From assembly GCF_027257155.1 (NCBI RefSeq), contig NZ_JAPWDU010000007.1:62001-126000 (forward strand): a stretch of DNA of 64,000 nucleotides, given 5' to 3'. Position numbers and translations under genes: made by a program. Position 1 is the stretch's first letter; each line of letters begins with the position of its first letter. The notes under the pieces are model-generated. The model was not told where the DNA came from. It made no database searches and saw nothing but the letters and a program-made list of their open reading frames with translations. Positions 61,946 to 64,000 of the stretch are shown here, piece after piece. The DNA comes from Cerasicoccus sp. TK19100. Its GTDB lineage: Bacteria; Verrucomicrobiota; Verrucomicrobiia; Opitutales; Cerasicoccaceae.

Positions 61946-62126
61946 TTGCGGAATGCGGAGTTCGGAGTTCGGATTTTGCAAACGAGACTGTCCGCTAAGT
62001 GGCACGAAGGGATGCTAAGAAAATTTTAGCGCAGCCCTTATTTCGCATCTCATTGGGTATCTTTGACGGCCATCGCGTTAAAAAATCCGCAATCCGCATT
62101 CCCAAATCCGCAATTCCCCGCTGCTC

Positions 62127-63197
62127 CTATCTTATATAGATATAGTAGGAGGCGATGATGGCACCGAGGTAGACAAACGGGAAGCCCCAGAGCGATAGCT
62201 TGTCGATGAGGTCGGCTAGCTGTTCGCGTTTTTTCTTGTGGAGATACCAGAGCAGCAGGCTTTGGAAGACCACGCCCGCCATAATAATAAAGGACAGGAA
62301 GACAATGGCGTCCGTGAAGGTGAAGTAGGGGATGCGTGGTAGGGAGCCGTCGATCAGGAATTGGTAGGCGACAATCGTCAAAATGCCGATGAAGGCGATG
62401 TTCAGGCGGTCGGTCAGGTTGTTGGAATCGATCCAGAAAATCGACCACATCAATATGATTAGTATAAAGAGCGGAAAAAGGATGTCCCAGATAATGTGCC
62501 CGGGCTCACGTTGCAGGGTAAAATAGACTTTTAGTTGAGAGACTTCCTGGGGTTCGCCAAAGAAACGATGTTTGACGGTGATTACTTCACTGCGGACATC
62601 GAGCAGCTTCCATTCGGCGATGTTTATTTGATTGTTTAGCTGCACATAGTCCTCGCTGGCTTCGGTAATCGCCGGATCATCCTTTAAAATAACCTGCTCA
62701 GTGCTGTTGCCGAACGGAATGAGAATGGCGCTAAGCTCCTGCTGATCGAAAGGAAACTTTCTCAGGTTCATCGTGCTTTGAACGGTGATGTTGCGCTCCT
62801 CCAAGTAGCGCACGCGGCCATCACTGTAGACTTCTACCTTAATACCGTCGGCTTCGCCGGCCCCAATGCGGTTTAGCACGACAAACTGCGGCCACCAGCC
62901 GGAGTAGATTTCATTGAACTGAAACTCGCCCTGGAAAATCTTTACGTCCGCGCCGTATTCCTCGGCGTCAAAGGCCAGGCGGGGGTCTTTCCAGCGGGCA
63001 TAGAGGATAACTTCCGCCTCAAAGGTCTCATCCACTTCGGCTAGTCTGATAATATCGGCCACAAAGACGCCAACGGTCACCACTGTGGGGCTGGAAGGCG
63101 GGTTGGGCATGCCCGCATCGATACCAAATGTGCGGCTGGAGATTACAAGAAGTGCGATAAGTAGCTGAAAAACGCGTTGGAGATATAGCATATCCAT
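62127..63197 (-). CDS. pentameric ligand-gated ion channel (GLIC/ELIC type)
   Basis: A 356-residue bacterial Cys-loop-type channel. A signal peptide (about 1-27) leads to a beta-sandwich ligand domain with K-F-P-F-D-Q-Q as the Pro-loop mark (without the two cysteines of animal receptors). The four membrane helices follow: M1 with I-L-F-P-L-F-I-L-I-I-L-M-W, M2 with R-L-N-I-A-F-I-G-I-L-T-I-V, M3 with F-L-S-F-I-I-M-A-G-V-V and a short M4. Prokaryotic members are gated by protons or amines. It probably sits in the inner membrane. The ligand is unknown. Confidence 0.92.
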   Translation of the reverse strand: MDMLYLQRVFQLLIALLVISSRTFGIDAGMPNPPSSPTVVTVGVFVADIIRLAEVDETFEAEVILYARWKDPRLAFDAEEYGADVKIFQGEFQFNEIYSGWWPQFVVLNRIGAGEADGIKVEVYSDGRVRYLEERNITVQSTMNLRKFPFDQQELSAILIPFGNSTEQVILKDDPAITEASEDYVQLNNQINIAEWKLLDVRSEVITVKHRFFGEPQEVSQLKVYFTLQREPGHIIWDILFPLFILIILMWSIFWIDSNNLTDRLNIAFIGILTIVAYQFLIDGSLPRIPYFTFTDAIVFLSFIIMAGVVFQSLLLWYLHKKKREQLADLIDKLSLWGFPFVYLGAIIASYYIYIR

Positions 63198-63440
63198 GGA
63201 AATACCCTCAAATTAAGGCTCTGGTCGACCCGATTATGAGCGAAAACGCGGAAAATTCAGATTCAGCGCGTCATTAAATCGAAGGAGGCGATAAATCGAC
63301 TCGTGCTGTAGCCCTTTATTCATGGGGCTTTGGGGCCTGTGGATAACTATTTCGCTTTTTTCGAAAATATTCCTTGCCGAAGTGAATCTAAACTGTAGCT
63401 TCCGTCATCTTTCCCTGATGACTGGCCTCGCCGGTCGGAA
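63198..63440. other. intergenic stretch without a gene; hairpin at its end
   Basis: No reading frame has family features. CTTCCG (63399-63404) pairs with CGGAAG (63436-63441), with GTCATC/GATGAC inside, a branched stem that ends just before the tandem array. The rest of the stretch has nothing that I can identify. Confidence 0.55.
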
Positions 63441-63447
63441 GCGAAAA

Positions 63448-64000
63448 CGTTCTTTAAAAGGTCTAAGTTAGTGGTTTCGGGAGGCTGAAAAAAAGTTTAA
63501 ACTTTTTCTTGCCAACTGAAATTATTGAGGCAGTCTTCGCAACCTTTCGCACACCACTGAGTGGTAAGCGGAACCGAAAAAGATTCCTTCGGGAATCTAA
63601 TTCGAAACGTTCTTTAAAAGGTTTGAGAAGCGACGAGATTCGTCACCGAAAAAAGTTAAACTTTTTTGTTGACGACTCGGCATTGTCTCGGCACTTTTCG
63701 CAGTCTTTCGCTCATCGCTAAAGCGGTCAGCGAAACAACCAAAACCCAATCGGGTAAAGGTTGTTTTGTTCTTCAAAAGGCTTAGTGAAATTTGTCACGT
63801 CACCGAAAAAAGTTAAACTTTTTTGTTGACGACTCGACATTGTCTCGGCACTTTTCGCAGTCTTTCGCTCATCGCTAAAAGCGGTCAGCGAGACAGCCAA
63901 AACCCAATCGGGTGAGCGTTGTTTTTGTTCTTCAAAAGGCACTGTGAAATTTAAGTTTCGTTAATGTGAAAAAAGTGAAAACTTTTTGTTGACGAGCCGC
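63448..64000 (+). repeat. tandem array of about 160-bp units, possible rRNA leader
   Basis: Each unit has an A/T palindrome such as AAAAAAGTTAAACTTTTTT (63649-63667, 63806-63824; related at 63490-63507 and 63969-63987) followed by TTGACG (63669, 63826, 63989; TTGCCA at 63509). A TTCTTTAAAAGG or TTCTTCAAAAGG box precedes the next palindrome (63450, 63610, 63769, 63928). Spacing is 157-163 bases. The box resembles boxA of rRNA leaders. The array runs on past the right edge; reading frames here are not genes. Confidence 0.7.

Follow-up and report, generated by a model that had tools for sequence, protein, structure and literature searches.

Introduction

In Escherichia coli the rRNA (rrn) operons are transcribed from tandem promoters of the sigma-70 type provided with an UP element, an arrangement that the promoter-like array described here resembles. 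In the available parts of two accounts of the E. coli operons, two promoters are described (PMC5179076), with one boxA set in the leader, just after P2, and another set before the 23S gene (PMC10250234). Multiple promoters are also found in mycobacteria. There the hypervariable multiple promoter region (HMPR) of rrnA contains two promoters in M. tuberculosis and five in M. chelonae; the part of the description available to us mentions gene conversion for this promoter region, and treats BoxA as a leader motif conserved among operons (CL2) (PMC10218544).

We have analyzed a stretch of 64,000 nucleotides from Cerasicoccus sp. TK19100, a marine bacterium of the order Opitutales (Verrucomicrobiota); the stretch is termed the window (C7:62001-126000) and was read together with the sequence that follows it. 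Its last part resembles the E. coli P1-P2 leader (boxB-boxA-boxC), as far as that is described in the available part of PMC10250234, in having a hairpin before boxA, a boxA placed between promoter and 16S, and a boxA-like sequence before 23S. The difference lies in number: two promoters and one leader boxA set in E. coli, but here six promoter-like units, each with its own boxA-like motif. Several tandem promoter-like sequences, which are conserved, precede the one rrn operon here in a number that varies between species, and in this the locus would be comparable to the mycobacterial HMPR. The available description of the HMPR mentions no BoxA for each promoter, and it is by that description only that we set the two apart (PMC10218544). 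Tandem rrn promoters are thus already known; a boxA for each promoter appears to be undescribed, in that we did not find one among the matches listed for open-access titles and abstracts. Among the same matches we found no description of rrn promoters from the Verrucomicrobiota.

Results

The array lies upstream of an apparently single rRNA operon

The source assembly comprises 5.07 Mb in 13 contigs, and the contig that carries the window is 281 kb in length. A match to 16S rRNA begins at window coordinate 64320 (C7:126320), 320 bp past the window edge, and is followed by tRNA-Ala(TGC), tRNA-Ile(GAT), 23S and 5S, all on the same strand as the array. The array is therefore placed directly upstream of a 16S-23S-5S operon, in the position of its promoter and leader. 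The first-pass annotation had predicted that the repeats would precede an rRNA operon, and would have given this up had the next 1 kb lacked any gene for rRNA or tRNA. With the 16S match at 64320, well within that distance, the prediction is borne out.

A single 16S match was found in the genome (26 of 123 candidates scored, in a 13-contig draft). The presence of two or more rrn operons was considered and rejected, there being one 16S, one leader and one match to the leader DNA. The operon is internal to its contig, with protein genes on both sides, and is apparently the sole rRNA operon of the genome; less probably, it may be a collapsed repeat. On the 3′ side of 5S are open frames that read as methyltransferase-like and glycosyltransferase-like. 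On the other side, the divergent neighbor of the array is a relative of the bacterial neurotransmitter-gated ion channels. In the gap between recJ and the channel gene (about 61950-62125), GGAATGCGGAGTTCGGAGTTCGGATTTTGC is followed by CCGCAATCCGCATTCCCAAATCCGCAATTCCC; by eye these look partly complementary, a possible inverted repeat.

Six promoter-like units in series

Six promoter-like units precede 16S, five with their -35 element within the window and the last beyond its edge. Each has the same layout: an A/T-rich (UP-like) tract, a -35 element, 16-17 bp, a weak -10 element, a hairpin headed by CTTTC, and a boxA-like motif containing GTTCTT. The features are as follows.

Before the ion channel gene, upstream of the array: recJ
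62127-63197, minus strand: relative of ligand-gated ion channels, 356 aa (PF02931, E 9.6e-26)
63350-63461, plus strand: unit P6, the most distal; UP-like tract 63350-63373; -35 TTGCCG 63374-63379; -10 TAGCTT 63396-63401, spacer 16; CTTTCCC 63409-63415, opening a hairpin; boxA-like GTTCTTTAAAAGG 63449-63461; matrix score 14.3
63485-63621, plus strand: unit P5; A/T palindrome and UP-like tract to 63508; -35 TTGCCA 63509-63514; -10 AGTCTT 63532-63537 (or CAGTCT, spacer 16); CTTTCGC 63544; two hairpins; boxA-like GTTCTTTAAAAGG 63609-63621; matrix score 17.8
63645-63780, plus strand: unit P4; UP-like palindrome to 63668; -35 TTGACG 63669-63674; -10 CACTTT 63692-63697; CTTTCGC 63705; two hairpins; boxA-like GTTCTTCAAAAGG 63768-63780; matrix score 23.2
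63802-63939, plus strand: unit P3; UP-like palindrome to 63825; -35 TTGACG 63826-63831; -10 CACTTT 63849-63854; CTTTCGC 63862; two hairpins; boxA-like GTTCTTCAAAAGG 63927-63939; matrix score 23.2
63965-64000, plus strand: start of unit P2; UP-like tract to 63988; -35 TTGACG 63989-63994; past the window, -10 TAGCTT at about 64011 and boxA-like GTTCTTTCTGAAAG at 64065; matrix score 14.8
Past the window: unit P1; -35 TTGACG 64096; -10 CTTTAT 64119; boxA GTTCTTTGAAAAT 64173; matrix score 42.8

P4 and P3 share 99% identity across 82 nt, and 94% over the whole unit. The A/T palindromes (63488, 63648, 63805 and 63968) belong to P5 through P2, and by reading are out of phase with the UP tract usual in the order. 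On folding, the CTTTC box forms part of a predicted hairpin in all six units.

In the first-pass annotation four units had been proposed, each with a palindrome, a TTGACG and a boxA-like box, in a series ending at 64000. The four boxes and four palindromes are indeed present, and so is TTGACG in three cases (63669, 63826 and 63989), but the fourth has TTGCCA (63509) and there are six units in total, the series continuing past the edge with the boxA-like motif at 64065, the promoter at 64096 and the boxA at 64173. The pairing of promoters with boxes also has to be shifted. Given the order of elements within a unit, the box at 63449 is assigned to the promoter with its -35 at 63374, upstream of the interval then considered.

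The units resemble the rrn promoters of the order

We constructed a matrix from 54 proximal rrn promoters from 13 families of the Opitutales, leaving out the genus of the organism itself; 54 of the 72 genomes of other genera yielded a usable promoter. These promoters have an UP-like tract, TTGAC(G/C), 17 bp (49/54), yTTnnT, 6 bp (40/54) and CTTTCCC, where the frequencies of TTGACG and CTTTCCC are inflated because the ad hoc score by which the training promoters were chosen already rewarded both, the fixed spacings being less dictated by it. Within the UP tract, A occupies positions -56 to -52, T those from -51 to -48, and A again those from -43 to -41, a phase that agrees with the E. coli UP consensus.

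All six units score at least 14.3 with this matrix (range 14.3-42.8). Over positions 1-63200 of the window, both strands included, there was no match of 14 or above and one of 12 or above, and in shuffled leaders matches of 10 or above occurred at 0.10 per kb. Thus all six have an UP-like tract and a putative core promoter matching the rrn promoters of relatives. It had been stated earlier that no clear -10 element was present at standard spacing; since the units fit the matrix of the order, whose -10 is the degenerate yTTnnT, theirs is taken to be this degenerate element at 16-17 bp. A scan of the leader with the plain sigma-70 consensus gave one site, compared with a mean of 0.7 in shuffles, and that site overlaps the A/T tract of P3, away from the proposed promoter. 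Standard consensus is therefore unsuited to this leader.

A boxA-like motif follows each promoter

Four boxes in the window match boxA with no more than one mismatch; when the window was shuffled 100 times with dinucleotides preserved, the mean was 0.08 and no shuffle gave more than 1. The whole assembly of 5.07 Mb contains the exact pattern GTTCTTYAAAAGG four times, always in the array, and its reversed control not at all. There is a boxA-like motif after each of the six promoters rather than one boxA shared by them, and the proximal copy, GTTCTTTGAAAAT, is situated between promoter and 16S. Upstream copies often retain GTTCTT(T) only, with loss of the GAAA half.

A further boxA-like sequence, GTTCTTTGACAG (L003:3460), lies 150 bp ahead of the match to 23S. 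It has two mismatches to GTTCTTTGAAAA, and as there are seven such matches in 11 kb where 1.66 are expected by chance, it is weak evidence for a pre-23S boxA when taken alone. The 16S-23S spacer has a second boxA-like motif, GTTCTTTGATAG at L003:3002, before the tRNAs. The genome encodes NusB (PF01029, 107.8 bits).

Segments from the CTTTC box to the proximal boxA fold better than their mononucleotide shuffles (n = 66, mean z = -2.6, with 58/66 below -1), and the arms of the hairpin vary among genomes (CTTTCCC/GGGAAA, TTTCGC/GCGAAA, TTTCTC/GAGAAA). A search of L003 200-1330 for terminator-like sites gave none on the forward strand and one on the minus strand, with 2.1 expected. The idea of an intrinsic terminator closing each unit was accordingly rejected. 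Scans for Rfam families returned none over the window (gathering scores) or L003 300-1330 (to E 1), so that the units match no Rfam family.

Conservation and change within the genus

Three species of Cerasicoccus can be compared. The present genome has six units, G002 six and G003 seven, one unit each in G002 and G003 being recognized by eye rather than with the matrix. Scores are low for P5 of G002 (8.9) and P6 of G003 (10.4). The units of G002 occupy places matching those of our array, and the last boxA of G003 is masked. Between our array and that of G002, the elements (UP, -35, -10, CTTTC and boxA) are identical at 276/350 positions (79%) and the linkers at 283/540 (52%), in a comparison that treats positions as independent and in an alignment that leans on the same motifs.

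The most distal unit (P6 here) is 88-89% identical across the three species. Values for P2 are 72-78%, and for P1 77% between our genome and G002, P1 of G003 being cut by masking. The middle units are 58-76% identical between species. In the identity table, free end gaps have produced some spuriously low values, and only the higher ones have been used. Units P4, P5 and P6 of G003 are 91-94% identical to each other, but such likeness within a species fails in G002, where the middle units are 63-76% alike; our own P5 is closer to units of G003 (72-73%) than to our P4 (67%). Because some middle units are near copies of each other, the array appears to recombine. The pattern fits recombination that adds or homogenizes some modules of ~158 bp while the end units keep their types.

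Unit spacings in L009, L010 and L204 are mostly 156-163 bp, others being 135-137 and 105-107. A repeat of 158 bp would span about 15 turns of the helix, a sign perhaps of phasing or simply of duplication.

Promoter and boxA are associated across the order

For loci of the order that lie upstream of 16S or contain the leader, anchoring on the leader sequence GTTCTTTGAAAGTTACTTTGTGCGATTG gave 78 leaders from 74 genomes in 18 families, four loci with fewer than 18/28 leader matches being left out of the leader set. The 28-nt leader around the proximal boxA was found in 62/372 genomes of the order, and masking may have affected the rRNA regions of many of the rest. A 16S match was absent from near-complete genomes, several of one contig (G005, G007, G043, G116, G127, G212, G233 and others). 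The rRNA regions of many relatives thus seem to be masked, and runs of N are directly present in L204 and L206.

Seven of the 74 genomes were without a qualifying proximal promoter, and the remaining 67 were scored for chained units. The proximal leaders of the Opitutales share with our array the order UP tract, TTGACS, 17 bp, yTTnnT, CTTTCCC hairpin and GTTCTTTGAAA. They differ in number, mostly having one unit (20 genomes) or two (34), with three in 10 genomes and four, five and six once each. These counts are lower bounds, because some units (P3 of G002 and of G003) were recognized by eye only; the automatic count for G002 is two because its P3 (TTGATT) fell below the threshold. The serial layout had been called unusual in the first-pass annotation. 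It is not confined to this genome, and recurs across the order in smaller numbers.

What lies between tandem promoters in these genomes? GTTCTT is present in 43/68 inter-promoter segments, as against 4.3 on average and 9 at most in 200 shuffles; this count took both loci of two genomes. With one locus per genome, and segments spanning the CTTTC box to the next UP tract, it is the commonest 6-mer, in 38/66 segments and 10/11 families, and it is still the top 6-mer with the genus of the organism removed (32/60). The reverse complement, AAGAAC, is found in 0/66. Exact GTTCTT is absent from 28/66 segments, including 3/4 in family f24 and 15/25 in f14.

Beyond the order but within the class, 10 of 24 loci inspected upstream of 16S (L040, L042, L043, L046, L048, L052, L053, L055, L058 and L061) have a GTTCTT 66-70 nt past the point where a TTGAC box starts, and in eight of these ten a second boxA-like sequence, GATCTTTGA, lies nearer to 16S. 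A doubled boxA, the first near the promoter, may therefore be wider than the order.

Discussion

The conclusion that emerges, and that we hold with good confidence, is that the array serves an apparently single rRNA operon as its promoter and leader region, and is made up of six homologous promoter-boxA modules in series, at any of which polymerase would load. The position before the rRNA genes, the modules, their conservation, the order-wide association of boxA with a preceding promoter and the difference in copy number within the genus are all observed in the sequences.

Each module would consist of an UP-like element, a core of the sigma-70 type (TTGMCR, 16-17 bp, weak -10), a CTTTC hairpin and a boxA-type signal. 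We infer that each of the promoters P2 to P6 fires, that the boxA motifs act by binding NusB, and that output is raised. RNA polymerase should be able to load at any of the six modules; if transcription starts near the CTTTC box, it would pass its own boxA within about 35-70 nt, the distances in the six units putting the first base of boxA some 39-65 nt on. With boxA so soon after the start, an antitermination complex with NusB and S10 could form at once, and would let the polymerase cross the other promoters and a leader of up to about 910 nt on its way to 16S. Each added module would give the one operon a further site of initiation, and the number of modules would change as they recombine with each other.

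Three other readings have to be weighed against this. The upstream units might be worn tandem duplicates of P1 and its leader, under little selection, the proximal promoter alone doing the real work. The score of P1 (42.8) is far above the 14-23 of the others, there are recent copies among the middle units (our P3 and P4 at 94%, P4-P6 of G003 at 91-94%), and the species differ in the number of units, all as expected for such duplicates. Yet worn copies should not keep their elements better than their linkers over the whole array (79% against 52% between two species), nor should the most distal unit show the highest conservation along its length (88-89% among the three species) and GTTCTT be retained behind upstream promoters in 10/11 families; we regard this explanation as quite improbable. 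A different doubt concerns the motif itself. The upstream units could be promoters while GTTCTT is not boxA but, for example, a site of RNA processing or attenuation (a hairpin with a U-rich run). The motif is U-rich and placed after hairpins, and its upstream copies drift from GTTCTTTGAAA to GTTCTTTTC, GTTCTTCTG and similar forms. On the other hand the proximal copy is the full GTTCTTTGAAA within the conserved 28-nt leader, the order of hairpin then boxA matches E. coli boxB-boxA, the forward strand of L003 200-1330 gave no call of a terminator-like site, and a further copy precedes 23S, where the available part of PMC10250234 places the second E. coli set. A role other than boxA thus seems unlikely.

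The remaining reading, which we consider somewhat unlikely but the strongest of the three, is that the modules serve regulation more than raw output. The six promoters, which are not alike in UP phase, in their -10 or in the region of the start, would then each answer different growth signals. The P1 and P2 promoters of E. coli do answer different growth signals. In our array the UP tract of P1 is in the usual phase and its -10 is CTTTAT, P3 and P4 have palindromic tracts and CACTTT, TAGCTTCC is common to P2 and P6, and type is kept across species by the distal unit (88-89%), P2 (72-78%) and P1 (77% with G002). Against this, P3 and P4 are nearly identical in our genome, as are P4-P6 in G003, and units so alike would be expected to do the same job.

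Returning to serial promoter-boxA modules that would raise output, might the same apply to the order as a whole? We put forward, tentatively and as something that could equally turn out otherwise, that in the Opitutales promoter and boxA travel as one module, whose number (from one to at least seven) is tuned by recombination as an alternative to having more rrn operons, and which would make polymerase resistant to termination right after any start.

The survey provides a promoter model for the Verrucomicrobiota: TTGACS, 17 bp, yTTnnT and CTTTCCC. The array also raises the question of whether the loading of antitermination factors is a per-promoter function. Bacterial growth rate is usually tied to rrn copy number. 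A series of promoter-boxA modules that can be counted, all ahead of a single operon, would offer another means of scaling rRNA synthesis, an idea made testable by related species with six, six and seven modules. Our results suggest that, where rRNA operons are few, a bacterium may increase its output by multiplying whole promoter-plus-leader modules.
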